Source: Branchiostoma floridae
Lineage: Eukaryota > Chordata > Leptocardii > Amphioxiformes > Branchiostomatidae
Assembly (NCBI RefSeq): GCF_000003815.2
Contig: NC_049988.1
Location: 861,679 to 925,678 of the forward strand
Reading direction: 5' to 3'
DNA: 64,000 nt
In this document: in pieces, positions 1-49,853 of the stretch
Layout of the letters: each line of letters begins with the position of its first letter
Numbering within the stretch: the first letter of the stretch is position 1
The notes under the pieces: generated by a model
What the model was told of the DNA's origin: nothing
Databases searched by the model: none
The model's input: the letters and a program-made list of their open reading frames with translations, nothing else
Translations under genes and position numbers: made by a program

Positions 1-2
1 TT

Positions 3-1028
3 TTAGTTGTTGGTGGAAGGAAGAGAGAAGCCACTGGATGGAAGCCCGTCCTTGAGATGAGATGTTATGATCTCTCGATAAAAAGGGAGGCCGTGAGGAC
101 CAGAAAGTCCTTCCTGTCGTCTAACAGGACAGACGTTGTCACAAGTAACACTACTCCAGTTGTGTCACATTGCACGATATCAACCCTGCCCTCCCCCGTA
201 CAGATGATGGGTGTAGTGGTCCATGAGCATCACATCTACATCACGGGCGGGAAGATCAAACGAAAATCTCTCAGTCAAGTTCTGAGGTACAACCTGTTCG
301 CTTCCACGTGGGAAACCCTAGCGCCAATGCAGCAGCCCAGACGGGCGCATGGGTGTGGAGTTGTGGAAGGACAGGTGTATGTTCTAGGGGGCAGAGCAGG
401 TCCAATCATTGTTGATACAGTTGAACGTTATCACCCAAGCAAGAACGAGTGGCAGTGGTGCGCCCCACTTCCCCAGCCAGTTCGAGTCCCCAGTGTTGCC
501 TCCCTTCATGGAAAGTTGTACGCCATCTGTGGCAGCCTGGGTGCCCATCACCCGTGTCCTTATATCCAAATCTACACCCCTTCTACTGACTCATGGACTC
601 TCCTGACCTCCCTCAGACTGGATCACATTGCTGCACCTGCCGTGGTTCTGGACGACACCATCTATATTCTGGGAGGAGAACTCAGCAAACAGGTCACAGT
701 CTTCAAACCGAAGGATGGATCGATCTCGTCTGCTGCAGATATGAACTTTAAACGTGCTGACCATGCCGCGGTACTGATAGACAATAAGATTTATGTGATG
801 GGGGGTATGCAGGACCCCGGGGCCCGACTCATGGGTGCGGTGGCGCATGACAGTATCCACTGTTACAATCCCTTAGGTGACGTCACGTCCGGAGAATGCT
901 GGACCGAGATAGGGAAAATGCCGGAAGCCATAGCCATGCATGGAGCTGTGGCTGTGTACGAAGGTTATTTACAAGGTGGAAGTGATGTCACTAACTGTAA
1001 CAGAGAGGTCTTTGGAGATGAACCTTAG
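3..1028 (+). CDS. Kelch-repeat protein, C-terminal exon (5' truncated by window edge)
   Basis: An open frame runs from the window edge to TAG at 1026-1028, so the start lies upstream; the internal ATG at 57 is not a believable start because the frame before it already reads LVVGGRK, the first Kelch strand. At least six Kelch blades are visible by their double-glycine signatures (VVGG, ITGG near 240, VLGG near 385, ICGS near 530, ILGG near 670, VMGG near 800, and a degenerate LQGG near 970), each followed by the usual Y..W pattern (TWETL, EWQWC, SWTLL). A beta-propeller that starts at the beginning of a terminal exon is typical of BTB-BACK-Kelch adaptors of cullin-3 ubiquitin ligases, but the BTB and BACK parts are outside the window, so the subfamily is not assigned. 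An AATAAA at 2387 could end its 3' UTR. Confidence 0.85.
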   Translation, partial: LVVGGRKREATGWKPVLEMRCYDLSIKREAVRTRKSFLSSNRTDVVTSNTTPVVSHCTISTLPSPVQMMGVVVHEHHIYITGGKIKRKSLSQVLRYNLFASTWETLAPMQQPRRAHGCGVVEGQVYVLGGRAGPIIVDTVERYHPSKNEWQWCAPLPQPVRVPSVASLHGKLYAICGSLGAHHPCPYIQIYTPSTDSWTLLTSLRLDHIAAPAVVLDDTIYILGGELSKQVTVFKPKDGSISSAADMNFKRADHAAVLIDNKIYVMGGMQDPGARLMGAVAHDSIHCYNPLGDVTSGECWTEIGKMPEAIAMHGAVAVYEGYLQGGSDVTNCNREVFGDEP

Positions 1029-3445
1029 GACTATGTTTTCGGTTTTGCGTTGTACGGATGTTTTCAGTATTGCGTAGTACTGTCCATCCTCCTATGCAGG
1101 GACATCCAACAGCGAAACCGCCTGTCTGGATGTACCCTGCTTTCTCAACTGTCACCCTTAGTTCCTGACCACCCTGCTTAATGAATATTAATGAGCTTAC
1201 CCTTTAATATACGAGACCCCTTTTGAAAACTGAAAGACCTATTCTGTGATTGGCTGGCAGCTGGTTTTGGGGGACGTCCACGGGAACTAAGAGTGACAGT
1301 TGAGAAAGCAGAGTACATCCAGACAGGCGGTCTCCCTTGGATGTCCCTGCGTAAGAGGATGGTTGTACGGATGTCTTCGGTATTGCGTGGTGATGTCATT
1401 CACTTTGACAAAGAGATGATTGAAGATGAAAACGTTACCAAAACCCTTCAAAAGTAAGGCAAGAAATTTACAAAAACGCTCTAAACATTTCCGCAGTAAT
1501 TTTTTTTCGAGAAGTGGATACCGGGTATCTGGTTTGGCTCTGCTCCAATGTTGTAGGCACACAGGAAGTGATGACTAATAACAACACCCACTCACCCGGG
1601 TGTTCGCAACAATCATTTGCAGTGAAGAGAGTCTTTCATATGGCTTTACAGCTGGTATGTCACTTGTTTATCCAAAGTCGATATGATATTTTGCGTGCAT
1701 GGATCATTGGTATGTTTTGCTGTGTCTGTTAATTTTAGTACCTGCCAAATGTATGTTTTGCTGTGTCTGTTAATTTTAGTACCTGCCAAATTTGAATACA
1801 CTGTCAGTAGATCGAAGATGACCCCAAAGGTCATATTTATCAGTGTTGAAGGAAATAGAGGTCAAGAGTTGGTACAAATAGTCATTAACTACGCTTCACA
1901 AAGAGGTTTTTGACACGCGGCTGGCGGACGAAACCTGACAATTTTGGAAGCCTGACAAAAACGTCCAAAAGACATCAAAACAGACCGGAGCCCAACCTCT
2001 ACTTGGAGACTTGTCATCAATAAGATATGACAGAGTCTCCATGGAGGAGACTACTAATTCATGAGGAGGCCTTTTTCGTCTATCTTCTTATATTTAAAAA
2101 TAATCACAATCATATTCCCCAGCTTTTCCACATTTACGGACGAACAGACAGTGCTTTCCTCTTCAAATGACAAAACCCAGAAATTGTAGAAAAAGTGGGA
2201 CTGTTCCTTTTCCTCTGCTTCCGAAAAAAGAAGTCAAACTCAAGCTATCTAAAGTAGATATAGTCAACACTAGTATTCCAGTAGTCCCTTTGTATAATAA
2301 TATTTATCACAGTGCATTGTTACATTTATATTCCCTATCTTGTTAGTACCATGTACTTGGAATTAGCCTATGGGCATGGACTTGCAAATAAACTTTCTTA
2401 TATTGTCTGAGTTGTGTTAAGTCCTGATGTAGCCCTTAGCTTTTTTTAAATACAGAGATAGCGGGACGGATGGGAATATTAGGGACATTAAGATAAAGTT
2501 TACAAAACCTGTAGATATATCAGGAAGTAGGAGGTCTCCGAAATATTGTTGATATATGCAAATGTTTGCAAATTTATGCTAAATTTATGCTAGATTTTCA
2601 TTGAAGAGCTCATCAAGAAAGGGTGATGAAACTTCTTATTTCTTGTCTCCAGTCATATAGAAAAATGTCTATCAGGCGGTTCTATTTTTTAAAACTTCAT
2701 TTGTAAACTTTCTTCATTAATTATGCAATTAAGATTTGGTTGCATGAATCATCACTCAAGGGGTAATCATAACTCAATCACATACCAAGTATTATGACAA
2801 TCCGTCGACCCTTTCCTGAATTATTCTCTTTCAAAGTCAAGGACAAAATCGGCCCTGCATTTCAAAACAAGTCGCTAGAGGGCCCACACCTACATCACTT
2901 AATCCCAGTTCTAACACCTGTCAACCACTAAAAAAATCATTAACCTGGCATTTGCAGAAAATTTGACCTCCAACAGGTGGATCCGACAAGGAATCCGAAA
3001 CATACACATGTATCCGAACGTCGGACACAGCTATATACGACAAAATCCGAAAAAAATGGTTTTCAACAGATACGTTAAAAACTTAATATGTTAACTTAGT
3101 AATACTATACATTTGCCATGGATTACGAACTCTTTAGAATCTTTGACATATTCCAACCCAGACTATGTTTACATTTGCCACAAATACGTACAGATCCGAT
3201 CCAACACACGAACTTTGATGAAATAGTTTATCATTCATACAAAATCTTACACATACACAGTTTCACGACACCCCATACATAATATGATAGGAAGTTTGAA
3301 AAATTCTTTCCAGCACGTATGTCACATCTTTGAGTGATACAATGACAGGGATTTTGTTGTGTTTTATGACAACATGAACAGTCAAGAGTCACCCTGGACG
3401 TACACTCGGCTGCCATACAGCCCAAGTCTACAATGATACATTTGA
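1029..3445. other. 3' UTR and intergenic region between Kelch and LRR genes
   Basis: No coding exon recognised. It holds an inverted-repeat element (separate entry), a 41-bp direct duplication at about 1712-1795 starting ATGTTTTGCTGTG, and a possible poly(A) signal at 2387. The rest is AT-rich and featureless by eye. Confidence 0.5.
1099..1350. repeat. Foldback/MITE-like inverted repeat
   Basis: Arms at 1099-1165 and 1282-1350 are imperfect reverse complements of each other over about 68 bp (GGGACATCCAA at the outer edge, CTTAGTTCC at the inner edge). A word outside the left arm, TGTACGGATGT at about 1054, reappears directly outside the right arm at about 1364, consistent with duplicated flanks. 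There is no open frame inside. Confidence 0.7.
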
Positions 3446-6400
3446 TTACTCTTCTAACAGCTTGATTTTTAAAGACATCTTTATATGTCCCTTTGATATG
3501 TAAACCCCAGTGGTCAAAACGTGCTCTACTCTTTTCCACGCCATTCCCAAAGTACCAACTCTGCTTCCAGTTGAGCCATCATATAGCAAAACGTTCCGAG
3601 TGTTGCGTACTTGGCCCTCAAGCCTGTGGACGGCGTCATGTACTTGTTGCGCCGCCATGCGGAAGGAGGCCGCCCTACACGTGATGGGCCACAAGCGGAC
3701 AGACCGCAGTTGTGTCATGTTGACAAACGCCTTTGTCAGTGAGGAGAGACTGAGCGCCAGCTCATTGTCCTTCAAGTTGAGACTCTGTAGCTCCTGCAAG
3801 TGACCCAGCCTTTTAGCCATGGCTCTTCCTCCCACATTTGTTATCGAGTTGTTAGCGATATATAATCTCATGAGAGCCTTTAGGTGAGGAAAGGCCTCTG
3901 ACATGGCCTCCACCCCGTCATCTCCGATCTTGTTCGAGCTGAGAAATATGATTGTCACTGTACGCAGCAGAGGAAGCTGTCCGGCTATCGTGGCTGCTGC
4001 TTTCCCAGAAAGTCCGCAGTTTTGAAGGAAAAGCCCCTTCAGTCCTTTCAGGTATGGGAAAAGGTTGACCAACGCCTCAGCATCATTGTTAGACAGAGTA
4101 CGTTCTGACAACGATATGTACCTGTTGTCGCTGCTTTGGGAAGATTGTGTGATATTTGGCAGTGCATTCAATGCACCAAGCATGGAGGAGAAGAATTCCA
4201 TGTATGTGGAGAAGCCGTGTGACTCCATGTACTTACTTTCGGTTCCATCCACTATGCAGGAGGTTACAGCATCTAACATGGTGTGAGGGAGGGCGGTTTT
4301 GTGCTCCCAGTACAGACACACCCAGGGCCAGAAGAACCGGTCTTCCAGTAGGGCTATCACAACCTCATTTTCAGAATAGCGCTCTTCCAAACCCATGGCG
4401 GCATCACTGTCCTGTTGGAAATACTCTCTGATGTAGAGTGTCCACTCAGTTCTCCAATCTGCAAAATGTTGAAAAACATTTTACCACCTTGAAAAACTAA
4501 GTTTGACAACATGTAAAGGAGGTGGTGTAACAGAATAGCTGAAGAATTGAGAGTCAGGTGTGGTTTGGCTCGTGTCCAATGTTGAGAGCTACACGGTAGT
4601 TGCTTAGACAGAATTGAAGCAAGTGTTTTGTTGAAATGGACCTGTTTGAATCACATCGTTTAGTTTATTGTGATAGTAGAAATAGCAGAAATAAATAGAG
4701 CGTACGTTGTTACAACATACAGATTCAGCTGTTTAGCCAATGAGATTGAGGAATTTTTAGACGTCAGGAACGATCTAATACCTGATGTCTCGGAAGTAGC
4801 TGGTGACGTCACAGCCAGGTGTGCACACGATGTTGTGTAGACGGTTGAAAGTGTTGTATGGTTCAGCTAGGAACGAGAAAAAAAAAACATTTTAGAGACA
4901 TAAACAATTAACAATTTCATTGCGATATCACAAATCACATTCAGTAAATTTTCAGTAATTCTGTCACTCATTTCTGTGTTCTATTGTACCGTAACCTTGG
5001 GTGAATGAACTTTATTGCGCGACATTTGTACATGGTACAATTGTAAGGCAACAGTAATAAGTCAATTAATACAATCATACTCGTCTAAGGCAGTATATAA
5101 CTACATACATGTATAGTTCAGGAATGTGAACATAAATGGCGTATTGACATTGTGTAATACACAAGTTAAACAAGTCGGCCTGTTACTGTACAATAGATTC
5201 TCTCTTTTTAGAGCATTACATATGTATTGGCATAAATACGAAGATATGCAGTCTGGATATGGCATAGGTAGATTGAAAGTACATGTCTTTGGTAAAGGTG
5301 TGCTAGATTTACATGTGATCATATCCATTAATTTTTGTCCATCTACGCTATATGTAGGGCATGTCATTAGAAAATGATGCTCATCTTCAACACCATCTTA
5401 CATGAAGGACATCGCCTCAGGTTGGCTGGTACATTACGGTACCGACCTTTTTCTATTTCCAAACAGTGAACTGGTTCTGTTGATGAGTATGTAAAAAACA
5501 TACCACCGGGCTTTCGTTGTGGTGGAATCTCAGTCTGCTGTGCTGGTTGAAGATGACGGCCACCACTGTTGCAGCAGTCACGGCAATGATGACACCAACA
5601 CAGACAGCCAACACGCACCCTGGACGGGACCTGCAGAACTCACGGCAGTTCTGACTGCACCTCTGGTCAGCGCCATCTGTCGAGAAACAAACAAGTTGCA
5701 ATGTAAGAGAAGAACAGTGTGGAATGTTACCCTCTTGTTTATCTATTTCAACCTCTAAAACTGGTGTAGTATGTGCGTTTGTCATTCATTATGCAAATAT
5801 GGTCCTCATTTGCATAAATCATATTAGTTGATCGTCTCCACCCAAATAACAGACGCACATCTCTTAACAAAGGCTGTAACAGCGTTTTCTGATAACTTAT
5901 GCAAACAAGCATAAGTAATGTGCAATGATGTTCACCAGTTCACTTGCAAAGGCCACAAGTAAGAAATTTCCGTCATTTACCACAATGGGAGTATAGCATT
6001 TACTCATTAATCATACAAATTAGGTCTATTTGCATAATGTATATCTATCAATTTTCAATGTTGCAAGGGTCCTATGATAGAGCAGTGCGGGATTAGGCAA
6101 TTTTCTCGTTAACTATGGAAATTGGATTACGATTTGTATATGCCTGTTACTCACCCCTGCTGTCTTCCCTGACTCGGTGTCTCATGCACACTGCATCTTG
6201 TGCTGCCACAAACTCAGCATCCAAATCTGCATACACGTTATCTGGTGTTGGCTGGCCCAGCTGGTTATCGTCCATTTTGTAGAAAGGCTGTTGTTCGTTT
6301 TCCCCATCAGCTGAGGCAGCTTTCATCTCGTAAAAAGGCTGTTCTTCTTCCACTTTGTCTTTGGCAGCGGTGACGTCCATCTTGTAAAATGGCTGTTCTT

Positions 6401-6994
6401 GTTCTTCATCAGCAGGGGAGATGTCCATCTCATAGAATGGCTGAGCTGAGGCATTTTGGATCGCGTCTTGTACTGCCAGGAAGTCTGGGTCTAAATCGGC
6501 ATAGACGTGCATGGATAAGTTGGAATTTTCCTCATCGTTCTCGTGATGTCTACCATTGTCGTGATGCCTGGCAGTGTGTTCTTCATCGTTCTCGTAATGC
6601 CTGGCAGTGTGTTCTTCATCGTTCTCGTAATGTCCATGATTTTTATCGTACTGGAAATATTTGTGTTCTTCATCGTTCTCATAATGTCCGTGATTTTTAT
6701 CGTACAGGAAATATTTGTGTTCTTCATAATTCTTGGGATGTCCGTGATTTGCATCGCTCTCTCCGTTTTCAGCGTTCTGCAATTTTGGCTCCTCCCCATA
6801 TTCTCTAACAGGCTTCAAAAGTGCTTCTGGGTCTTCCATTGCACGCAGTGCCTGTCTCTGCCAGTCGAGGATCCGCTTGGTAGACCAGAACCTCTGTCCC
6901 ACCCGCCTGACGTAGAGCGGGTCCGGCGGGCGGCAGGGCACATCGGCCGGCTGAGGTGGTGGCTCCTTCGGTCGAACAGCAGCAGGTGGAAATA
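3446..6994 (-). CDS. Predicted single-pass membrane protein with Tyr-motif tail and leucine-rich repeats (4 exons, 5' end missing)
   Basis: Exons on the minus strand are 6994-6155, 5676-5504, 4866-4782 and 4458-3446 (stop 3448-3446). Each has a good AG/GT border and the phases agree throughout, giving about 702 residues. Residues 1-280 are acidic and disordered. They contain tandem HYENDEEH-type repeats, two VYADLD motifs and five PFYEM/PFYKM motifs, which look like phosphotyrosine docking sites (YEND fits the Grb2-type pYxN pattern). Residues ~300-322 form one hydrophobic membrane helix after a Cys-rich stretch. Residues ~480-616 form several 28-residue RI/NLR-style LRRs (LFLQNCGLSG, LSSNKIGDDG, LYIANNSI, LNLKDNELA). 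A cytoplasmic N-tail before one TM segment suggests type II topology, as in many amphioxus lectin-like receptors. RI-type LRRs are usually intracellular, so a fusion of two neighbouring genes remains possible. More 5' exons may lie at or beyond the gap at 7282-7381. Confidence 0.58.
6155..6994 (-). CDS. Tyrosine-motif repeat exon of the LRR membrane protein
   Basis: This 840-nt exon encodes a proline-rich start (KEPPPQPAD), a short basic segment, then repeats: three to four units around HYENDEEHK/HGHYENDEE, two VYADLD units and five QPFYEMD/QPFYKMD units. Every repeat centres on a tyrosine in an acidic context. The spacing looks like recent internal duplication of 30-60 nt units. Acceptor at 6995-6996 and donor GTGAGT after 6155. 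Confidence 0.65.
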
Positions 6995-7281
6995 CTGTAT
7001 AGAAATGAGGAATTAAATAGAAATTGGGAACATGTACACAATCACGACTTCGAGACATTTGGGGGACACCTTTGTCGAAAGTGTTCACCACAATGCATAG
7101 ATTATGTAAATGTAGACGGTATTTGCATAATTTATGATAGGATTTATGCATAAAAGTTTGCCAAATTTGAAACGAGAAGACGTCTCCAGGAGAATATATG
7201 TATTTTTGCTTAAGAAAACCGATTTGAATAAAATAAATTATGTTAATTACAGTGTAAGTTGCATGATCAATTAGAAAAACA

Positions 7282-7381
7282 NNNNNNNNNNNNNNNNNNN
7301 NNNNNNNNNNNNNNNNNNNNNNNNNNNNNNNNNNNNNNNNNNNNNNNNNNNNNNNNNNNNNNNNNNNNNNNNNNNNNNNNN
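7282..7381. other. Assembly gap (100 N)
   Basis: Exactly 100 Ns, the usual placeholder for a gap of unknown size. The 5' end of the minus-strand LRR gene may be hidden here. Confidence 0.99.
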
Positions 7382-8096
7382 ACAAGCATATATATTAAGC
7401 TTTAGAACAAAAGAATAGAGAAATTTTTCCCGCATCAGTCGGCCAAACGAAAAGTAACATTTGCTATTTAGTAATACATGTACATGAATAAGACCTTAAA
7501 GTCTTAAATAAAGGCATGATTATTTGGCGAAGAGATGGGTTCGTTGAACTCTAGTATTGTAAATAATATTGTTAGTAATAAATAGCTTTGTTTTCCTAGT
7601 ATTGATTAACTGGTCCCAGAGGTTTATAACACTTGTGTCTCAGAGCCTTGTTTGTAAATTGGGCACTGAAGTGAGTTGAATCAAGATCCATATTTGCAAA
7701 AAATTGCTAATTTCCTCAAACCTGGGTAAGAATGACACAGGAAAAAGACCGCAATGTAAATATCAGTCAGATGATAGCACTATAAATTGAAAATCTTGTG
7801 CAGAATTCACTCTAAAATGGTTGCATGATAAGCTATGCTACAACAGTCCCTCCCGCGATACTTATAGAACAGTCCCGCAATGAGGTCACGTGACTAGTGC
7901 CCGCCATTTTGAATTGTTATTGTTATTGTTAATGTATGGGGGTATCGGCGCCGTACATTTTGACCAAAAACAGGGACTTAAAATGATTGTAAAGCACGGA
8001 AACTCCGTACACATCAATGGGACACATTCTTGAACATGTTTTTGGTGGTAGGTGTCGGTGCCGTTGCGCCGCGGCCGATATTTTTGTGGATAAAGT

Positions 8097-8314
8097 GGGC
8101 ATTCGCTAAAAAGTCTTTTTTTCTGGGCGTTCGCTAAAAAGACCATTGAAAATCGTCAACTTTGATTTATGTCACTTCGGGTGGATGGATTGACTTGAAA
8201 CTCAGCATTAATGCTTGGGAGCACAACGTGGACATACTCCAAGCAAAAAAAATGAGATTCGTGCAGCGCGGACTTCTCTAGAGTGGGTGTTTGTGGGCAT
8301 TCGCTAAAAAGACT
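8097..8314 (+). promoter_or_regulatory. Three copies of a 19-20 bp motif upstream of the AKAP9 start
   Basis: GGGCRTTCGCTAAAAAGWC occurs at 8097-8115, 8125-8144 and 8295-8314, always on the plus strand, 160-380 bp before the start codon. The spacing is irregular, so this is not a simple tandem array. A shared control site or remnants of a short repeat are both possible. Confidence 0.4.
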
Positions 8315-8400
8315 ATGCGACCTTGTCCCACCCAACATCTGCTTGTAGATTCCATGAAAACGTCGATGCGAGACCACCATAGACGTGTCCTGAGGCGGGA

Positions 8401-8410
8401 CGCCATTTTG
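8401..8410 (+). promoter_or_regulatory. YY1-like element near the AKAP9 transcription start
   Basis: CGCCATTTTG, 64 bp before the start codon at 8474. GCCATTTTG downstream elements near the start site are typical of YY1-bound TATA-less promoters. The same word at ~7904 supports a real promoter region. No TATA box is seen. The transcription start is inferred. Confidence 0.4.
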
Positions 8411-8473
8411 TCTGTTTACTACAGTAAAAACGGTGTTCTGTTGGACTTGTAGGGCTGTGTTTTCTTTTACTCG

Positions 8474-8521
8474 ATGGATGAAGAGGAGCGCAAGAAGAAA
8501 TTGCAGACAGGGAAAGAGAAG
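8474..8521 (+). CDS. AKAP9: AKAP9/pericentrin exon 1 (48-nt start exon)
   Basis: ATG at 8474 with G at +4 opens 16 codons, MDEEERKKKLQTGKEK, then a GTATTC donor. The exon is too short for an ORF scan and was found by resemblance to the conserved AKAP9 start (MEDEERQKKLEAGKAK in human, from memory). Joining it in phase 0 to exon 2 at 10147 gives the family pattern K-LAxFRxRK. This sets the true start of the gene. Confidence 0.88.
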
Positions 8522-11500
8522 GTATTCTTTTCAATCGAACAGAGAGAGCTCCCATATTGCATTTGTGTGCATGTTGCCCATGCACATGCATGCAGACAAA
8601 TATTTGTCGGCAAAATTCCCTGACCAGGCTTAGCGCTCAGGTATAATTTTGATACAGTAGAGCTTGGGTCGTAGATGATATAGTCTCCAGTTTTATGCTG
8701 TTTAGTTGGGTTAAGCGTCGCATAGCACAACAGTAGGTGTTTGGCTCATAGCCCAGATGTTTTAGGTACGAGTCCCTAGATATGTTCCGACGTCGTGCCC
8801 TTGGGAAATTTTGTCGCTTGATCAAGTTGATGTAGTTTCGGTTGGGGACGCCCCCAGATAGGACGTTCAATGGTGGTCCCTTGTTTGAGGAGGGCCACAC
8901 CTTGAATGAATAACCCACCACAGTTATCGAAAGCAGTAGGTCAGAATGGTTCAATTAAAATAATAAATAGTCTTGTGTTCTTCATTGCTAGCTGCTAAGC
9001 AGGTGTGTTCCTGGTAAATTGCTCCTTGCGTACATGTACGTGTGAATTACCCTCGACACCTAGCATTAGCAAACTTCTGGGTGCGACAAAACTCAGGATT
9101 TCTTCCCTGGCATAGAGTTTCTAACCTTAGCCCATGTTAAAAGTGGTGAATCAGTGATCCACCTAAAATAAATGCCACTGCTCAAGAGGTCTGGAAAGAA
9201 GAATGGAGGACCCATGTTTACTATTGGGTTAACCAGGATGTGTGGTTGGGCCAAGTAGGCCAGATTAGCTACGGGCTGGGTTAATTTAGGGTTCCATCCT
9301 GTTGTGAGCGAATCAAATCTATGAGTCTGGTATTACTATTAGATACTTTAAATGTATTAAAGTTCGCAGGGATTTCATTTCACGGCAGCGGGAAAAAGGA
9401 CTTTTCGCGGTGATTTTAATTTCGCAGTAGCACCATGATTTGAAGTCTCTTACTGCCATTAAAAAAAACGTTCGCGGTGGTTTTAAGTTTGCGGTGAAAC
9501 AGCCGCCGCGAATATCAAACCACCCCAAAAGTTTCTGCATTTACAGTACTTTGTACCTGCTTTGGAAGTTTCAAAATTGATGGCTAAAATGCAAAAATAC
9601 GTAGCTACCCTGGTCACCAGACTTGATACCCAGGCCAAGAAAGGGGCAGCCCAAACCTCCCTCTGGCTAAAATCCCTGGAGCGTGTATTTAGATTGATGG
9701 GAAAACTGTCATGGGGCCCCGGATGAAACCAGTTAGAGAGCCATTTGTCGGTCCGGTGCCCAGGGTAAAACATAGTCTCCTTTGAAGCCTTTAATAATAA
9801 TAATGATACAACAATGTATTGATAATAATATGGTCTGGTAATATTATTGCAGCCAGTAGGTACCCAATTATAAGGATTGCTGTCATTTTTTTAGGGGGGA
9901 GGGGCACTTTTATTCGCAATTTTTAACATATGGGTCAAGTTCCAAATTCTTCCAATGAATTTTGAACTGTGTACTAGACTTTAAGTAAGTGTGCTCAAAA
10001 GTCATGATCATCTCAGACTAAGTTAGAGGGAATGTGGACCCTTCCTGTAACACAAAGTTGTTTCTGGGATTATTTACCTCGCCTGGAGAGAATGAATGAA
10101 ACGTGAGCTTTGCATTCGTCTGATGTGCTGTCTTGTTTTTACCCAGCTTGCTGCATTCCGGAGGAGAAAGGCAGCTAAAGATGATGACCCAAAGAAGAAG
10201 AAGAAGAGAAAGAAGAAGGAAGAGGCGGGTGCAGCAGGGGGAGGGGGGGCGTCCCCAGAAGACCTGTCTCAGTCTGAGTCCCTGGACATCAGCACGGCGA
10301 GTAACAGCAGCCTGGACCTAACGTATCACTCCTCCGAGTCCCTGTCTGCATATGATGTGAGTAACGTATTAGCCTAGAGCTGTGTACCTAAACAAATTTA
10401 AGGCACAGGTCGTGGGTTTAGGTACAGGTCAGGACCTGAACCTGTACCTGAACTAATTGTTAAAGTGAAAGTTAATCTTCAATAAGGATAGAAGCATGTT
10501 TGAACCAATAAAAACATGCTTCATTGTGGTAGACACATGATGCAACAAATTTTGGCTCAGAGACTGCTCATGGTCATTTCACGGTAATTTTATCTGTCAA
10601 AGTGGCCATCCTCTGACCTGTTATCCTGCCTGGCTTGTACTTATTAGATACAGGTCCAGTACCTGTACACCAGGATTCCGGTATTTTGGGCCTGTACCTA
10701 ATTGATTGTACTGGTACTGTATCGGTAAACTGGACCGGTACACAGCTCTATATCAGCCTAGCATAGTTTATATCACACCAATCATGTGACGTCATCATCA
10801 GAAGTCTGGGCCTTCAGTATAAAAGACAAAAACAGCTGACACTAGTAACAGTCAGGCCTGCAGATGTCAAGTCATGCTGCTTTCAGTTAGGGGTGGGTAC
10901 TGGTACAGAAAATTCAGGTACAGGGTACTACAGGTCAGCTTCAGGTCCAGAGGATCATGTCCCAGTCCTAGCCTGAACCTGGACCTAGTTGTCAGTGAAA
11001 ACTTGTGAATGGGCAATGCTCAAAACAATGGTCCATTTCGCTACAAAGGAATCTGTTTGATGGAGTATCAGCTTCCACCGACATTTAAAAATCCTATTTT
11101 CATGTAAACTACTCTAAATGCCTAGTGTTGTGATATCAGTAAAATCATCAATAAGAGACCCCCCCCCCCTCACACACACACACACATACTTCCATGTGTT
11201 TTAGTCTAGACTAGATTTGAATATTAAGCAGCTCAGTCCTTTTGAGTAATACAACACTGGACTTCCACCTCTTTGCATGGAGACCTGCACTGAACACACA
11301 TGTATGGCATCTATCTACTTACCTTATGGAATTTAAAGTAGCTACGAGAGTACTTCAAGTTCAAGTCTCCATCCAAGTTCCTCTCAAAGTCAAGACCATC
11401 AACTGGTCATACAACACGTAGTAGTAAGGTTGGTAGTAAAGGCTTGGTAGAAATGACTATATTTACACTACTTTATTTCTTTCTTGTTACCCAAACACAC

Positions 11501-14500
11501 GGACGCCTGTTGATGTAGTGTGTTCATTTTGTAATCGGTAATTGTTTTCCACATGTCCTGTTATAATCTTTTTCTTTTAACACAACTTTTATCTTTATCA
11601 TTTTTTCATTTCAACACACCTGTCATCTTTCATCATCTTTTCCTTTCAACACACCTGTTATCTTTTATCATCTTTTCATTTGAACACACCAGTTATCTTT
11701 ATTATCCATTCCTTTTAACTCACCTGTTATCTTTTATCATCTTTTCCTTTTAACACACCTGTTATCTTTTATCATCTTTTCCTTTTAACACACCTGTTAT
11801 CTTTTATCATCTTTTCATTTCAACACACCTGTTATCTTTTATCATCTTTTCCTTTCAACACACCTGTTAATAATCAGGGCTTTTTTTAAACCGGGGAACA
11901 GGGTCGCCGCACCCCGATACTGTCTACCTGCACCCCCTCAAATTACCGATTGTACTTTCTCTTTCAATGTAGCATTACTTTACCATATTCACAACATGCA
12001 GTCTGTTTCAAACTGATCCTTTTTCCAGTGAACATGTAACAAAAACAACATACAATAATGTATCTTATTATTACAAGCTTCATTACTCTCAAAATATCCC
12101 AAAACATATTAATAAAACCACAAAAATAACAATTTCTGGCTTTGAGTAAAGCACACAGCAGCATGCCCACGTTCTCATTGATAAGTTCATGGGAGGTTGG
12201 AAGAGTTCATTTTAAGTAGTAACAGGGAAAACATCTTTTTCATGGACTGTAAATCAAACATCCTTTCTTGGAAATATTTGAATCCATATTGCACATTAAA
12301 TTCAGATGGGTAAATCACTAGACAAAAGTAGTTAAAAACATAGTAATCTATACTAATTATCACATCAAAATGTTGTAAATAAAATCTTTCCCCCAATAGA
12401 TTTCTAAGAACTGCAACATCCTTCTGTTGTTAGCTCCTCCCCTTTCTGTCTGGCCCCACCTACCTGACTCCACACACTGGCTACAACTCTTTTGATGTGA
12501 AACATGATATCCCTGTGACACACTGATACAGCAGAGATTGTAGCAAACTTGAAAAAGTGTGAATATAACAGATCAAGTCTGCAATTTCTCACAACATTGT
12601 AACAAAACATTTGTTGACGATTTAGCTGTACAAAATGAATATTTTATCTGCATATAACATATAAGGCTCAACATAGTGGTACAGAATGTAGTGTGACTGT
12701 TGCCTTGGGAGAAAAAGCAAATAGTATGCAAAAATAAAATAAATGGTTGCTTATGATAGCCATGCATAAGAATGGTGTAAGCTTATTAACAAACCAAACT
12801 ATTTCTTCTCATAACATAGGGTTTAGATTTATCATTAATTCTTAAAACATGTGCACATATAAAGGGTGAGTTGTGGATAGTTTGCCAAGTTAAATTCAGT
12901 TTATATAGATAAAAGAAAAGTTGGTTTATATAAAAAACTTGACTTGACTTGTATATAAATCTTTTGACTATTTTAAGATTTGTATACAAATGTTTATATT
13001 GAGAAACATTCTTATTAAGTGCTAAATGTTGATATTAAGAAAGAAGAATAGCCTTTGAAGGTGTTGCACAATCCAAAAGAACTACAAAAATGTAACAAGT
13101 TTAGCCAGTTTTTTCATTGTGTTAATTGTATCTTACAGGCTACAAAATATGCCTTCTTGTAGTTTTACATGGTAAGGATAAACACACATTCAAGCTATGA
13201 TTTTCCCCTTGAAGTAGCCTCAAAATGTCCCATTTTTACCTCATATTTTCAAAGGCTTCGCACAGCGGAAGGGGGAAACCAACCCCCCGCTTGGTCGCTC
13301 CGCTCCCTCGCCACACTGACCAAGCTCCCTCATACTAATTTTTTCTAGAAAACCCCCTGCTGTTATCTTTTATCATCTTTTCATTAAAACACACCTGTTA
13401 TCTTTATCATCTTTTCCTTTAAACACACCTGTTATCTTTTATCATCTTTTCCTTTCAACACACCTGTTATCTTTTATCATCTTTTCCTTTTAACACACCT
13501 GTTATCTTTTATCATCTTTTCATTTCAACACACCTGTTATCTTTTATCATCTTTTCCTTTCAACACACCTGTTATCTTTTATCATCTTTTCATTTGAACA
13601 CACCTGTTATCTTTTATCATCTTTTCCTTTCAACACACCTGTTATCTTTTATCATCTTTTCCTTTCAACACACCTGTTATCTTTTATCATCTTTTCCTTT
13701 TAACACACCTGTTATCTTTTATCATCTTTTCATTTGAACACACCTGTTATCTTTTATCATCTTTTCCTTTCAACACACCTGTTATCTTTATCATCTTTTC
13801 CTTTTAACACACCAGTTATCTTTTATCATCTTTTCCTTTTAACACACCAGTTATCTTTATTATCCTTTCCTTTTAACACATCTGTTATATTTTATCATAT
13901 TTTCTTATAACCCTGTTATCTTTTATCATCTATTTCTTTGAACACACCTGTGGTCTCACCTGTGAGCATACCTGTGTGAGTAGGTCTGACGTCTGTTTTT
14001 TCTCCCCCAGAGTGATCAACAGTCCACCAGTGCTGAGGAGCTGTCGGAGGTAGGAAGCTTATCCAGGGCTCGAAATACTTTTTTCTGCATACCTGCTCTG
14101 GTGCAGGTAACATTGAAAATTACCTGCACCTGACAAATTTTTCCTGCACCACTCTGAATTTAGGAAGTATGGATCATACTAAAATTGTTGAGGAACCGTT
14201 ATTTTAACAGTCAATGTAGCTGATAACAATTCACATACACCTACATGTACCTAGTACATGGACCTGGTCCCCAGTGCAGGTTATGTGCAAATAGACACAA
14301 GAAATACCTGCACAGGTCCAATTTTACCTGCACTAACCTGCATATGCAGGTGGCATTTTGAGACCTGTTATCTATCAATATGTTCAGCAATTTGGATGCA
14401 TTAGTTGTTGCACCATTAGGTAAATGTGATAAATGCATTGTGTCAGGGCAGTTTGAGTGTAGTATTGTCACATTTGTGTGTACTGACAGGAAGGGGAGGA

Positions 14501-17500
14501 CAGTGTTGCGTTGGATGTGTAGTTTGAGTGTAGTTTTGTGTGTACTGACAGGAAGGGAAGGACAGTGTTGCCCTAGATGTGAAGTTTGAGTGTAGTTTTG
14601 TGTGTACTGACAGGAAGGGGAGGACAGTGTTGCCCTGGATGTGAAGTTTGAGTGTAGTTTTGTGTGTACTGGCAGGAAGGGGAGGACAGTGTTGCCCTGG
14701 ATGTGAAGTTTGAGTGTAGTTTTGTGTGTACTGACAGGAAGGGGAGGACAGTGTTGCCCTGGATGTGAAGTTTGAGTGTAGTTTTGTGTGTACTGGCAGG
14801 AAGGGGAGGACAGTGTTGCCCTGGATGTGAAGTTTGAGTGTAGTTTTGTGTGTACTGACAGGAAGGGGAGGACAGTGTTGCCCTGGATGTGAAGTTTGAG
14901 TGTAGTTTTGTGTGTACTGACAGGAAGGGGAGGACAGTGTTGCCCTGGATGTGAAGTTTGAGTGTAGTTTTGTGTGTACTGACAGGAAGGGGAGGACAGT
15001 GTTGCCCTGGATGTGAAGTTTGAGTGTAGTTTTGTGTGTACTGACAGGAAGGGGAGGACAGTGTTGCCCTGGATGTGAAGTTTGAGTGTAGTTTTGTGTG
15101 TACTGACAGGAAGGGGAGGACAGTGTTGCCCTGGATGTTGCCCGTGTGGAGTTGAAGCAGGCTAAAGCTCAGATCCATGCCCTGGAGGAGAAACTTTACG
15201 GGAAGCAGGCAGCGCTGGAGGCACTAACTCTGGACTGTGAGAAGCTGAAAGCTCAGGGTCATCACCATACACAGGTATGAAGGATCTGGCAGTTACATTG
15301 TATGCATTTTCATATTTGATATAAGTACTTATGTGTAGTGCCACACCCATCATAAGTATTATGTCAATCAACAAAGATGTTTGCACAAAAGATTCACCCT
15401 TCTAATTCTATTGAACATCAAAATACTGCAAATGCAGAAACTTTCACGGTGGTTTGATGTTTAAATTTTTCCATGGCAGTAAGAGACTACAGTGCATGGT
15501 GCTACCGCTAAATTAAAACCACTGCGAAAAGTCATTTTTTCCACTTTCACGAAATTAAATCCCCGCAAACTTAGATGCATTTACAGTACTTCCAACTCTT
15601 GATTCCTCCCACCAGGAATCAAGAGCTGGAAGTATCCAAGTTGATTTTTGCCTGGAAATGAGGTTTGGGGGCTTGGCTATGAATAAGCAAGTTTAGTGGT
15701 ATGTGCTGTATGTCACAATAGATGACAACCCTGCTTTGGCTTTATTAATGATTTTTGTTTGTTTTGGTTTTTGTAGGCAGACCAAAGTGGAATTGAAAAG
15801 ACAGTTGAAGTGACCACACAGAAGACCAGTGTTGCAGAGTACAAAGAGAAAGTATGGACAGATTCTGACTCGAACATCATTCTGATATAAATTCTTATAG
15901 ACTGCAGTTGTTTATGATTTGCAATTTCGGAATGGGTGATGTAATACATGTATATAGTGTATAGAAAATACATGTGTGTAGGTAGATTTTTGTGTGTACC
16001 ACCTCTTCATCTTAACGACAACAAAAATTGAAATTTTGTACCTCCGAATCCCAAATTCTTTATGCTTGCCTTTGAACAAGTCATTCCTTTCATTGGTTCA
16101 AGAGGAATTGGAGGCATTTAAGACATCTTGGTGTAAAAGTGTTAATATGGACTTTTAGAGTCTCCTTTGTCCCACATTTGGGGTGGTACCGGTACAAAAC
16201 CATTTTTCCTTGTTGGACCTGTCCAGAAAAAAAACAGACCTGAAAAAAAAATCAGTGGACCAGATCTTGAACCGATTAGAAAATGAACAGATTATATGGG
16301 CAGGTGGTGGAAGTTATTGTTGTTTACATGAAGATAGGATTTTAAAATGCCAGTCAAGTAGAGAGTATCTATTAGGCATTTCTACCAAGATTTTACTGTC
16401 AAATGCTAACGGAAGTCTGATACTCCACCAAACGGAATCCTTAGTTGCAAAATGGACTATAATTTGTATCACCCATTTACAACTTTCACAATCAGGTCCA
16501 GGTACAAAATGATAAAGAGGTTCTAACTGTACATGTTACTATGAAGCATACATTCTCTCTTTCATCCCCAGCTACAGGAGTTCCAACAGGCTATTACACA
16601 AAGAGATGACATCATCAAGCAGCTGTCAGTCAATCTGCAGATCAGTGTACAGGAGCGTGACTCTGTACAACAGGAGGCTGGGCATCAGGTGGCACAGCTG
16701 ACACAACAGATCCAGACGTTACAGCTGCAGCTGCAACAGGTGCGGACACTGCAAAACCAACTCTTAACCAGTGTTCTAGCCAGCCTGAATTTTTTTTTCG
16801 TCCCCTGGATTTTGAATGGAAATCCTGTCGAAGATGCAACAATCCTAGGGGGTCCAGTGGTACATGTATGCTCCGGGCAAAATGTTGATATCTAGACCCT
16901 TTATAACGCTATTTCCTTTATTTTGAGCGGCGAATTTTGCTGGTAAACTCAGCTTGGTTCAATTAGTATCTTAACATGCCGATTTTTGTCCATCATAGAG
17001 GATGGAATGGGCTTTGACCATCCCCAGCAGCAAAATTCTGTCAAAGGACGAATGGACGGGCGCTGGCTAAAACCCAGTTATTAACAGTCTCCAATAATGA
17101 TTTTCTTTCCATGCTGACTCCATTACATTGATACCTGCATGCACATTAATTTTTGTTTGTTTCCAAAAAGTTTCCCCTGTGGTCAGTTGTATTTTGGGTG
17201 CAAAGTAGTGGGTCACAGCACTTAAAAGAGTGGTAGAGATTCTTCTGTTTATGTTTGTAGGTTTACTAGCCTATGGCTGGAACTGGTGAACGTTAGAGAT
17301 ATATGTCAGTTTTGAGACGGATTAAGATGTGTATTTTGAGGTACCGAGCCTTACTGTTTTAAATCACAATTGGCAAAATACTGTGTTCTGCTACTTTGTG
17401 GCGTAACAATGTTACCCAAAGGGAAAACATACAATGTTTTCTTCTGTCGCAAACCAATCAAAGCTTGGAACTGTTGGTTACAGCAAATAGGTAAAATGTA

Positions 17501-43118: not shown

Positions 43119-46100
43119 ATGGTCTACACATGGTGTCTGATTGACAATGGCCCCGATGGCATTGATCTGAAGTTCATTCCTGGTGTCAAGGATGGAAAGG
43201 AGAGACGGTATTCTGAGATTGGGGGGCCTGTAACCAGAGTAGGCATCCAAGAGAATGGCACAGAGACAGAACTTAGGGTAAGGCAGCTTTTGTAATGTTC
43301 AATTCATGCAACTTAGTTGCATACATGTGTACATTTTGTATATCAAGCTTTCTTTGAATTGGCTAAATATAGTTGTATGACTATACTATGAGTACTACTC
43401 ATAGTATTAATTTTTTTCAATTTCTGAAGATCTCTGACTCAACCTCTGTTATCACCCTGTTTAATGCAAAAAATCATATTCCAATCTCTAGTTCCAGGGC
43501 TCATCAACCAAGAAGGTGGTGAAGGTAGACATAAAGAACTACCGTCCTGCTAAGTCCTGTGGGGAAGACGGAGATTGTTTTGACGAGCTCACGTCAAAAA
43601 TGGCCCGACAAGAATTCATCAAGACCTTCAGAAAGATTAAGGATCAATTTTTCAGGGATAGTGTAAGTTATCCAAACAATTACCATGGCCATGCTTATAC
43701 ATGTAGTCCAGGATCTAATTTGCATGATAACAGGAAAGTTCAATATCCATGTACTAGGACAATGTTTTTCTTTTTGTGTTTCTTGCGTGGCTCCACCTAA
43801 CACCAAAGCACAAGGAACTTCGGATGGGAGGGAGAGGAAGTAACTTACAAAGTCAATGTACATTAATAATTTATAGGCTGGCTATAGTTTCACTTTGTCA
43901 GTGCACGCCTTTAATTTTAAAATTGAATGATCAAACTTAGGGTTTACATTTTATTTCAATTATCTAACAGCAGCAGATGCAGTTCCGACAGCCATTACAA
44001 AATCTTGGCAACAAGAGGGCATTTTCAGGGGCAGGTAAGAGGCTATTTTATCCCAGGCCTACAATATGTATTTTACGTAGTTCTGTTTTTATTGCTCTGC
44101 ATTATGAAGAAAAACTGGTGTAATCTTGGATTATCATCAATGATATTAGTTTAGAGTTCATCACAACCAACATTGACTTTATTTGCAGAGATCATTGCTG
44201 TCAAGCCAAAAGCAACAACTGCAACAACTGCAAACAGCAGCACTACTGTCCCTGCAGCAGTTGTGAACAGCAACGCAGGGAAGCCACCACGTACTACAAC
44301 ATCTGCAAACAGCAGCACTACTGTCCCTGCAGCAGTTGTGAACAGCAACGCAGGGAAGCCACCACGTACTACAACAACTGCAAACAGCAGCACTACTGTC
44401 CCTGCAGCAGTTGTGAACAGCAACGCAGGGAAGCCACCACGTACTACAACAACTGCAAACAGCAGCACTACTGTCCCTGCAGCAATTGTGAACAGCACTG
44501 ATGGTAAGCTTTAAAGCCATCATTAAGCTCATCAGCTACTGATATAGTATGCAATATTGAATTGTTAAATCTATCATAGTTGTCGAACTTGTCGTCAGAT
44601 TTTCCCATTGTCAGTAGCCTGCATACCCAAAATTTGGAGGATCGTTAAAGATTTGATTCATAATAATACCTTTTTTCCTGGTATAGAAATGTTTAGCTGG
44701 TTTAAAAAAATGTTTTATTTCTACTTTGCAGATGAGAATCCCACAGAGTCACCGGACCAGACAATTGTAACACTTCAAAACAACTCAGGTAACAACCAGA
44801 CTTGAGTTTCTCTTGCTACACTATGTTTAAAACTGTATTGACATGTACTGTAACAGATGTTCTATATTACATACATGTACAAGTACATGTCACAACCTGT
44901 AAATACTAGCTAATTTAAAGGAATGAATTGATGAATCAATCAAATCAATAACCTTTATTTAGCCTGGATAGCCCTGCCGGGCCATAGCCGCTCTTCCCAG
45001 ATAAATAAATAACGTTACAGAGCTAATTTTATAGGAGACAACACCTGACATGGGCCCTGCCTGCCTTGAAAAATGATATTGTTTGCTGAAAGTTTGCTTC
45101 ATGCATCCATGTTAAACCTGCATCTGGCCCTTCAGCCCCTAGCCACTGTAGGGGTAGGCTGGGACAGAAGGCTGAGAAGCGTAAAATCTGTCCCAGCCAG
45201 GCACAGTGTTAACTACATCATTTTGGCAGGACTTGACAACCAACCTCCCAAACTGCTGGATTGACCTAGAAAGACACACAGTGGTGTTTCCTTTGACACT
45301 TCCAGTCTAGTACAGTGTATCATTTTGACTCTAAACCAGCACTACATGCACATATTATGAATGGAAATGTGCCACTTTTGTACTGTTGTTTCCTAAATAC
45401 TAAATGACTGCTTAGCTTCAGACTGAGTTCACAAAACCTTTGTTTATTCACCTAGAAACAGGCATTCAGTCACTCAGACTATCTACATGTATTCAACATA
45501 TACTTATCTGAAGTTATCAACCTCCTGTTTTATACAATCCTTGAACCTTGAACGTGGACATCAGAGATGCCTTCACGGGTCGCAATGGATCCTTCTTCTC
45601 CACTCCGAGAGTATACAATATATGTTGTCATTCTGTCAAAAGTAATACAAAATGGTATCTTGACTCTTGGACATTGAATAGCACGTAGACCCATACTCTT
45701 TTACTAATTCTTTTCATAAACTTTACTGTCATCTTTTCAAAAAAGGAAAGAAAAAAAGAGACTTCCAACAGACAGTCCTTGCCATGCGCCAGGAATATGT
45801 TTCTGCCATGGGTGAAGCGGCATATGAGGAGCTCGACCACAGCCAGTTGCTCCCCGCGCCAATAAGCCCTCAACTGGCTCAAGTAAAAGCAAGATGGCTG
45901 GAGATCCTTGGCTACACAGATGTAAATATACATACAAATATGTTCTTTAGCTGTAGCAGTTGTAAAGCTGTCCACATCACATATTATAACAATACAGTGT
46001 GAACAATATTATGGAAACAATTTAAACATGTATCTTTTGTGGCACAAAAAAAAACACAATGAAATAACGAATGAATAGTTACAGTACTGTAGTACTGGCT

Positions 46101-49100
46101 TTTGCTCAACTCAAGTTTACTTACTGACCTGACATGTCTTTTTTTCTTCAGTACCATCAGATCCTTCGAAACGCAAAGGAGTACAAGGTCGTTGCTCTAC
46201 TGAGCAAGCGCTGTTGGGCTTTGGTACTACAAGTGTTCCAACTGTGCCAGAGCAATTCAATTGCAACAAAGGACAGGCAAGCAACAGTCCTGATGTTTCG
46301 ACCATTAAAAGGCCTGCTGGAAAAGGACATCTTCCTGTGGCTGTCGAAGTATGCCGCAGTGCCACAGGGAGCAGGGATGAACGTGAAGACATTGGTGGCA
46401 AGTCAAGAAGAAATGGTAATTTAAAGTCAAAATACAACCTGTCAGTGAAATTGCCTGTGTTGTCTTTGACCACTTAACGTTACTGATTTAGTTGTGCATG
46501 AATGTGTATGTTAATATTGTACAACATAGTGAAGGCCAACTAACACTAGCACAAATAGTTCAGGAGTCCAGGGAGATGAATATTACTACCACAAAACATA
46601 TTCTAAGCACTCAGAGTACACATTATGATCATTCCGAAAATCGATGACCTGTGTGGCAAAACTTAAAGATACTTGAAAGGTGCCATTGTGATACTGGGTA
46701 AGACGCTTTCATTGTCCTTTATCATTGTTAAGCTCTGTTTTCTTGGCATTTTGAAAAGGAAGTGGACAGACTGCCACCAATGACACAACTCGTCAAAGAG
46801 TATCGGGAGCTCAAGAGACTGCTGGGAGACCTGCAGCTCCAAGGAATAGGCCCTGAGGTAAGCTGTTTTCATACAGAGTTTTAGATGTGTGTATGTCAGA
46901 AATGCATAAAATAATTTTTGAAAATCATAAAACTGCAATGCTAAAAAAATGACAGTAATAATTGAAAAAAGAAACATTTTTAATGTCACAGGAAGCTTAG
47001 TAATAACTTTTCATACATTTTAACACGAGTGAATAGTGCAAACAAGTTGACTGTTCATTCCTTTCAACAGGCAGCTGCACAGCAGCAAAGTACCATCCGT
47101 AATCAGCTGGCGCAAATACATCAGCTGCGCCAGTTTGCTGTAGATGTGGCCCAGGTGGCAAACAGCTATGACAGCTCTGATGTAAAGATGTTACACATCA
47201 AGGTTTGTTCCTTTTGTAATACAAATGTAGTTCATTGAGGCAAACATTGAGAGCACAGCTCTGAATTACTTAAAAGATGACTAATGTCACGGAATATGGT
47301 CATTTTGCAATGACTTTTTTAAATTGGTGGAACAAGTACATAATTGTGTAGTTGAATGTACATCTTTCAATGATTTTCAGGGGAGGACCAGTAATGATAT
47401 ATTCATTTATTTTATCTATAATCAATACACTATCAAAGCAGGATATGCCAAAGGCCTACAATCACAGGATGCAACATTGCCACACATTTTTGTATATAAT
47501 AAAAGCCCAATAGGACAAATATTAAGCAAAAACATTACTGCCTCTTTGCTCCCACTTGTATGATTCCACAAAATCTAGTATCGTTACGTCTCAAATAAAT
47601 CAATCCAAAATGATATCACTGGGTCTTGAAAGATATGTACATTCATGTATATAAAATTGTCAGCATTTGTGCTATTGTTAACAGTTTTGGTTCAAGATCA
47701 CTGAAGCATTTCAGATTTTGCTATCACTCCAAGAAAAGATCAATTCAACCAAAGCAACTATCATAGCCTCAAACACAGGGTGGGAACAAAAATTAAGATT
47801 AAGTCACTTTCCCTCTCATGCCAGGGTGTCTTCAGAGCAATCTGATTAGTCATCACTAAAAATACATGTCTATTGGCACAATTACACATTTCTTATGTTC
47901 TGAAAGTAAAATATTGCTTCCTGTATTTATTTTCAGACATTGCTGGAGATTGACTCGTACTTGGACACAGAAACAGGTGGTTTCGCTGAGGAAATTTCTC
48001 TGTCCAAAATTGAAGGTGAATGGTAATCTAACATCATTTGTAGCTATCTCAAACCTGTAGGCCGTTTTTGTGACCTATCGTTTAGCATAACAAAGACGTA
48101 TCAAAATTGAAAAGTGTCCCTGAAGCTAATCTTAGCATTTTAATTCTAATGGTCAGCAAGACTGTTTCCTTCAATAGCAACTTTGAATTTATGCCCCACA
48201 AGGCTAAAATCCAACCTATGTACATACTATACTATGTATGATCATTTTTTTTAAATATTGTCACTTTTATGTCTTTATCTACATGCAGTACATGAATTCA
48301 AGTCATGCAATATAATTCTAATTCTTAAAATCATTATCTACTGCAGGTATCCCACTATCGGAAGCTAACTTTGTTCCTGGCCTCAACAGTACATGGCTTG
48401 ATGGTTAGTTTCAGTGCTAGGAAGTTCATGTTGAATTTCAAATATACAGTGATTATCATATACTGTACTGTACAGTAGGTTGATACAACTCTGTCAACTC
48501 AGCATTAATTACACCTACAGTGATTGTACATGACGTACCTACTAACTGTTATCAAAAATCTGGTTTCATTAATACCTGCAGTGCTTACATAAATAACACT
48601 AGCCTACATTTAGATGATGTTGAACATTTTTTACAGATGAAATGGAATCTGAGGATAGCACCGATCAGCAGAGTGCCACCGACCAGCTGAGTGCAGACAA
48701 GATCAAGGTCACCAACCAAGAGGGTGCAGACAAGATCAAGGTCACCAACCAAGAGGGTGCAGACAAGATCAAGGTCACCAACCAAGAGAGTGCAAACAAG
48801 ATCAAGGTCACCAACCAAGAGAGTGCAGACAAGATCAAGCCCAACGGGAAAAGGAAAATAGACAAGGAGGCAGGTGTGCTCAACCCCAAAAAGATGAGAG
48901 GCCAGACGTCTTACCCACCAAAGCCCCTCAAGGCCAAACAGCTGGTGGCCGTGGCCTTTAAGAAGGGGCTATATGTGGGTGCGGTCAGAGATGTGCTGAA
49001 AGGGGGCAAAGCCAAGGTCTCCTTCCTCAGCTACCGTGGGGATGGCTGCTACATCAAGCCAGAGAGAGAGAAAATAGAGACAGTAGACCAGCGTTGTGTT

Positions 49101-49346: not shown

Positions 49347-49853
49347 TTATGTTCGCTTTGAATGTCTTGCTCCCCTTGTACTCTGGCCCCTTGTAGTACG
49401 TTGACCTGTTGGCCCTCCACCGCGGCCACGTTGGCTTGCTTGTCCTGGGGTAGAAGCCCCTCTACCGCGGCCACGTTGGCTGGGTTGCCCTGGGGTAGAA
49501 GCCCCTCTACCGCGGCCACGTTGGCTGGGTTGCCCTGGGGTAGAAGCCCCTCTACCGCGGCCACGTTGGCTGGGTTGCCCTGGGGTAGAAGCCCCTCTAC
49601 CGCGGCCACGTCCTTGGCTGGGTTGCCCTGGGGTAGAAGCCCCTCTACCGCGGCCACGTTGGCTGGGTTGCCCTGGGGTAGAAGCCCCTCTACCGCGGCC
49701 ACGTTGGCTGGGTTGCCCTGGGGTAGAAGCCCCTCTACCGCGGCCACGTCCTTGGGTGGGAGCTGCATTATCATCGCATCGTCTTTTTTTGGCAGCACTT
49801 CTCTCCAAGGTCATTTTCCTCTTTTGATAGGCCTCTTTGGAGCCGATGTAGAC
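49347..49853 (-). CDS. RG-repeat tail exon of the transposase-derived gene
   Basis: Starts VYIGSKEAYQKRKMTLERSA, passes a basic AKKRRCDD stretch (possible NLS), then seven to eight units of 15 residues (QRGRGRGASTPGQPS type; 45-bp period, two spacer variants differing by 3 bp). It ends GARHSKRT then TAA. RG-rich tails commonly bind RNA and are arginine-methylated; here this is inference. The plus-strand frame opposite (49362-49865) and the second minus frame are shadows of the in-frame repeat. Confidence 0.75.
   Translation of the reverse strand, partial: VYIGSKEAYQKRKMTLERSAAKKRRCDDNAAPTQGRGRGRGASTPGQPSQRGRGRGASTPGQPSQRGRGRGASTPGQPSQGRGRGRGASTPGQPSQRGRGRGASTPGQPSQRGRGRGASTPGQPSQRGRGRGASTPGQASQRGRGGGPTGQRTTRGQSTRGARHSKRT

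Follow-up and report, generated by a model that had tools for sequence, protein, structure and literature searches.

How is one 3' splice site chosen when eleven copies of it, all of equal strength, lie in a row? The question is raised by a locus of the amphioxus Branchiostoma floridae, where, in a window of 64,000 nucleotides (nt) (C10:861679-925678, in an assembly of 513,431,437 bases; coordinates without this prefix are those of the window), a tandem array of 62-bp units stands before an exon of a gene that is probably of the AKAP9/pericentrin type and would thus encode a scaffold protein of the centrosome. Minisatellites termed 'mirages' have been reported from the amphioxus Adh3, troponin C (TnC), globin and PGBD5 genes (PMC3087553, PMC3902484), and the present array, hereafter the ladder, is a new example of this repeat type. 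It is suggested here that the ladder is very probably a tolerated mirage, with splicing most likely taking place at its last acceptor.

Tandem Repeats Finder (TRF) placed the ladder at 14473-15138 on the forward strand, with 10.7 copies, 98% matches, 0% indels and a score of 1283, while the best score among 100 first-order Markov versions of the same 2 kb was 62. The 513-Mb assembly has a single match to the array. Each unit spans an intron-exon boundary, joining 33 nt of copied intron end to 29 nt of copied exon start, and eleven AG|GAAGGG acceptors are found at 14490+62n (n=0-10). Ten of these, here called decoys (14488-15047; first exon-like bases at 14490, 14552, 14614, 14676, 14738, 14800, 14862, 14924, 14986 and 15048), have all retained the splice signal AG (10/10) and do not continue into exon; only the eleventh, the presumed productive acceptor with its AG at 15108-15109, runs on from 15110 into an exon of 165 nt. 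The first-pass annotation of this DNA had described eleven acceptors with an exact 62-bp period and a unit of 33 + 29 nt, on which TRF and an in-register reading agree, and its statement that the last copy alone continues into coding sequence was borne out at 15110. Mismatches to the consensus in the ten upstream units number, in order, 3, 2, 1, 0, 1, 0, 0, 0, 0 and 0, so that the downstream half is homogeneous and divergence is concentrated at the upstream edge. Acceptors 7-11 are identical from -15 to +29, and TGGCAG replaces TGACAG at acceptors 4 and 6. On the left flank (14450-14472), positions 14450-14463 repeat part of the intron start of the unit, and the 9 nt that follow (14464-14472), which none of the later units has, separate them from the first full acceptor. 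On the minus strand, three frames of 306, 241 and 216 amino acids lie across 14241-15223 and run without a stop through the whole ladder or the greater part of it. A hidden gene was considered there and rejected, since the frames arise because the unit contains no stop and its period is no multiple of 3.

The exons around the ladder, numbered 3-5 as in the first-pass annotation, lie on the forward strand and share one open frame. Exon 3 (14011-14049, SDQQSTSAEELSE) ends at the donor GAG|GTAGGA and is followed by an intron of 1060 nt, exon 4 (15110-15274; phase 0-0, donor CAG|GTATGA), an intron of 502 nt, and exon 5 (15777-15851), whose start was set by frame and whose end before GTATGG is a reading. 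Use of the nth acceptor upstream of the last would add 62n nt, and from all ten a stop is reached, the codon being TGA when n is 1-9 and TAG when it is 10. It had been claimed that misuse from n=1 on leads to a TGA; the premature stop holds in all ten cases, and only the codon at n=10 has to be amended.

At an E value of 0.001 or better there is a sole PACT_coil_coil (PF10495) match genome-wide, at C10:985246-985410 (69.7 bits), about 109 kb downstream of the ladder and on the same strand. Because this is the only such match in the genome and has this position and orientation, the gene that hosts the ladder is probably of the AKAP9/pericentrin type, and it is in this broader form that the earlier assignment to AKAP9 finds support. 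The exons of the window are presumed to resemble human AKAP9. No AKAP9-specific Pfam match was found on the window frames scanned, nor did a search with a few AKAP9 start motifs reveal an upstream exon in window 1-15000.

Splice sites were scored with a matrix. By this measure all eleven acceptors are weak, at 3.9-4.0 (3.9 for the last, which equals the decoys), compared with 13.4 and 9.0 for the acceptors of exons 3 and 5; the donors of exons 3 and 4 score 7.6 and 8.3. Local strength was rejected as the chooser on the grounds of these equal scores and of the identity of copies 7-11 over -15 to +29. Local RNA accessibility was rejected as well, the values for -8 to -1 being unpaired ranging from 0.010 to 0.026, with the last copy marginally highest and no useful difference between them. 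Nor is the ladder a case of NAGNAG or other close tandem acceptors, in that the spacing is 62 nt and each acceptor has a candidate branch point of its own. The latter, identified by pattern search, is the A of TTGAGT at -25, present in every unit (15085 for the last); a full yTnAy occurs within 70 nt only at -4, which is too close, and at -66, in the previous unit. Another potential acceptor within the unit, GGACAG|TGTTG, was dismissed, as it scores -9.5 and would lose 14 nt and break the frame. Since the last acceptor has no local advantage, the choice would have to come from downstream, and we infer that it is the downstream exon context, rather than local strength, by which the last acceptor is selected.

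A probable course of events is as follows. The unit of a minisatellite happened to straddle the intron-exon boundary, and its expansion would then have placed, ahead of the true site, ten copies of a 3' splice-site module (the candidate branch point at -25, a short T/GT tract and CAG|G) together with 29 nt of exon. The last acceptor would be preferred as the only one joined to a full exon and the one nearest the donor of exon 4 (165 nt, the others lying 227-785 nt away), and the flanking introns are long enough to make exon definition plausible. Occasional use of a decoy would result in a premature stop, and the transcript would presumably be removed by decay. Unequal exchange or replication slippage might both create and delete copies, and the true boundary, which forms the last unit of the array, may exchange with the decoys and in this way keep them intact-looking. 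The published work is helpful here. Beta-globin pre-mRNAs in which the 3' site had been duplicated were spliced in vitro exclusively to the distal site, the upstream duplicate having just 14, 55 or 205 nt of exon after it (PMC5389562), and this supports distal choice. Under exon definition with long introns, the sites closest across the exon are reported to be favoured (PMC9225289).

Splice-site arrays recur in what is probably the same gene and in other genes of the genome. A TRF scan of the window, the downstream 58 kb and locus L034, joined, located a second acceptor array at C10:983399-984282 (L034 1-537 and L070), with a 102-bp unit in 8.9 copies. Its units have TTTTCC(C/T)(C/A)CAG|A acceptors with strong T/C tracts and precede an exon ISVPQKPAEPQSSSWQQEKAELL...; nine acceptors were counted, of which a pattern search gave eight and inspection the ninth (121839 in the joined sequence). 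At the end of every one of the eight decoy units stands ACTCAT|GTAAGA (donor score 7.8), and because of this they resemble complete small exons. The same gene contains a donor array at C10:977509-977646 (L070), with a 51-bp unit in 2.7 copies of 100% identity, in which an open frame includes the donor CAG|GTA three times; splicing from donor 1, 2 or 3 would lengthen the protein by 0, 17 or 34 residues, respectively.

Elsewhere in the genome, an array with a 158-bp period and 4.2 copies occurs at a globin match (L010); its four acceptors, three of them decoys, are spaced 154-158 bp, and by period, place and number it fits the BflGb6 mirage. An Adh3-type exon (L012, 1122-2035, with N at 2036) has seven acceptors at intervals of 55-60 bp on one side and, on the other, ten donors at intervals of 33 bp. 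A sorbitol-dehydrogenase-like (SORD) gene (L029, 1571-2125) has four acceptors in a 143-147-bp array, and no array was seen at L031, a similar match nearby. Arrays with a period of at least 20 crossed a matched exon end in 1/9 globin, 2/23 ADH_N, 0/30 myosin-head (30 of 142 matches) and 0/1 PACT cases, a total of 3/63 that is not an unbiased rate, globin and Adh having been chosen because mirages are published there. In a myosin gene (L036, 75-361) a 43-bp array of 6.9 copies with AAGGACAGGTATGT-like motifs lies in the intron between two exons and crosses no exon boundary. Two apparent rules were tried on these arrays and given up. Periods of 62, 59, 158 and 143 fit by eye the rule that mirage periods equal 2 mod 3, but spacings of 154, 145 and 147 and a published 157 (PMC3087553) do not. 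That every decoy leads to a stop within the exon is true of 22/22 decoys in four arrays (with the SORD exon end set arbitrarily at +150), but of only 5/7 evaluated in the second array of the host gene, whose eighth decoy (121839) was not among the seven.

Comparison of the five acceptor arrays (the ladder, the host gene's second array, Gb6, Adh3 and SORD) bears on the history of the decoys. The AG is kept in 30/30 decoys. Counting substitutions only, 0/70 AG cells and 155/3053 other cells are changed (naive chance 0.03), and with gaps scored as changes the figures are 0/70 for AG and 247/3217 for non-AG cells. The numbers of acceptors located by AG-containing patterns agree with the TRF copy numbers. 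Distinct differences between the exon portions of decoys and the true exon comprise 26 synonymous and 24 non-synonymous changes, against an expectation of 12.1 synonymous (p 2e-5). Variants seen in a single decoy only number 16 of each kind, where 7.8 synonymous would be expected (p 0.0015, running from 0.0003 with equal weights to 0.06 with transitions only). By array, distinct synonymous/non-synonymous changes are 3/1 in the ladder, 4/10 in the second array, 9/4 in Gb6, 2/1 in Adh3 and 8/8 in SORD. Retention of the AG and the synonymous excess together hint that the decoys once were functional boundaries, or exchange with one.

Several points weigh against the tolerated mirage as it is set out above. 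The in vitro constructs that combined duplicated sites with a truncated exon were spliced very inefficiently (PMC5389562). Upstream 3' sites are reported to be preferred overall, though less so when the exon is defined (PMC9225289), so that distal choice is not guaranteed. The n=1 product would be an exon of 227 nt, which is easily definable, and why it should lose is not obvious. The AG comparison is a weak test, for the units share ancestry and most, except those of the 62-bp array, were located by patterns that contain AG. The synonymous excess was noticed post hoc among variants that are not fully independent, and it is missing from the host gene's second array (4 of 14). The anatomy of the ladder, the identity of its acceptors, the outcomes in frame and the recurrence of arrays in other genes are observed; the choice by exon definition, the decay of misuse products and the exchange are inferred.

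The first-pass annotation had put forward two alternatives, a decoy or expression dial and a neutral, tolerated array, of which the second is better supported because published mirages in the globin, Adh and TnC genes are said to leave regular splicing undisturbed (PMC3087553, PMC3902484); nothing marks the array as a regulator. In a copy-number dial, many acceptors would bind U2AF and the U2 small nuclear ribonucleoprotein at once, or divert splicing to stop isoforms, and more copies would mean less AKAP9 output. We consider this unlikely, though the stop reached from all ten decoys and the weak matrix scores of the acceptors are in its favour. In vitro, simultaneous occupancy of two identical strong 3' sites is possible and slows splicing, and at weaker duplicated sites there is more double U2AF occupancy, little complex A and very inefficient splicing, results which leave room for a dial; the same authors remark that processes linked to transcription might cut the extra binding in vivo (PMC5389562). 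The copy number of the Adh3 mirage varies among haplotypes, even somatically (PMC3087553), but mirages are described as silent for splicing in the same literature. A stronger version, to which we give slightly less credence still, is that the ladder is a heritable and possibly somatically shifting rheostat in which eleven equal weak acceptors compete for U2AF/U2. If so, both the delay before productive splicing and the fraction of isoforms of this centrosomal scaffold that contain a stop would scale with copy number and differ between cells or individuals, and the gene's further splice-site arrays, at least two in number, could act alike.

It might be supposed that the real array is shorter or absent and that eleven copies are an artefact of assembly. 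Such problems are documented, one BflGb6 mirage haplotype having been aberrant in the draft assembly (PMC3087553) and the PGBD5 repeats numbering 2 or 7 and 3 or 6 between two assemblies (PMC3902484). However, the outer units of the ladder have private variants and acceptors 4 and 6 have one in common, as in real arrays; the locus has a single match in an assembly whose contigs measure tens of megabases, a single long read can contain the 666-bp array, and mirages are independently documented as a kind. An expansion of this sort therefore seems very unlikely. Least probable, to a degree that makes it hardly credible, is a microexon derived from the unit. GAT|GTGAAG, at the unit junction of copies 2-10 (15075-15076 at the copy-10 position), would close a 27-nt exon encoding EGEDSVALD, and some transcripts could gain at least one nine-residue repeat ahead of exon 4, which would be a stage on the way to intron gain as proposed for globin mirages (PMC3087553). 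The 27 nt would preserve the frame, and copies 2-10 share the GT. In the AGGT model of intron gain by tandem duplication, a copy turns into an intron through a usable donor and acceptor within the duplicated segment, and as donor the unit offers only this GAT|GTGAAG. It is weak (2.6, a score reached by 18% of window GTs, vs 7.6 and 8.3 for exons 3 and 4), the GAT|GTGTAG of unit 1 scores -0.35, and neighbouring units would leave 35 nt as intron, which requires that units be skipped.

Other repeats occur in the window. Upstream of exon 3, a 35-bp minisatellite, TTATCATCTTTTCCTTTCAACACACCTGTTATCTT, forms two arrays with 1.5 kb between them (11561-11869 and 13360-13951), the second of which stops about 60 nt before the exon 3 acceptor. 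Tandem repeats of 33, 45 and 75 bp, all multiples of 3, lie within open frames at 48689-48839, 49413-49760 and 44218-44497 and are probably coding repeats. Several blocks of dense 18/36-bp arrays of the CCCCAGTAGTGTCCGTAC type are found at 53014-55026.

The ladder is of wider interest in that arrays of identical acceptors are natural experiments on the spliceosome's choice of site where local sequence cannot decide. Its merits in this respect are the eleven copies, the exact spacing and the identical local context of the last five, and farther on the gene probably has two more arrays, one of acceptors, unrelated to the ladder, and one of donors. Retention of the AG and coding-type substitutions in the decoys suggest, moreover, that functional boundaries have been drawn into minisatellite turnover.

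A mirage in AKAP9 was not found in the literature searched, subscription papers being outside its coverage, and no paper joining amphioxus and AKAP9 was among the matches listed. The ladder has much in common with the mirages that are known, and the genome that carries it also has the BflGb6-like and Adh3-type arrays. The splice signal is kept in many, though not all, published copies (PMC3087553). The Adh3 mirage, first described by Canestro et al. 2002 (cited through PMC3087553 and PMC3902484), is likewise a tandem minisatellite across an intron-exon boundary with copied splice signals, but its units are of 10-72 bp with somatic changes in length (PMC3087553), and the Adh3-type exon of the present genome differs in having arrays on both sides. 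The BflGb6 globin mirage comes close in design, in that an intron's 3' end is copied along with the 5' part of the next exon and only the last copy goes on as exon, whereas its units are of 150-160 bp and 6 or 3 of them have been published (PMC3087553); its probable counterpart at L010 has three decoys and strong acceptors (8.5-9.8). In lancelet PGBD5, tandem repeats of 60 and 108 bp also overlap splice sites, yet they are imperfect and partly annotated as exon (PMC3902484). Finally, minisatellites at exon-intron boundaries in human segmental duplications alter gene structure and sometimes form introns, but these concern recent primate paralogues and are not boundary-copying ladders with one productive site (PMC2812944).

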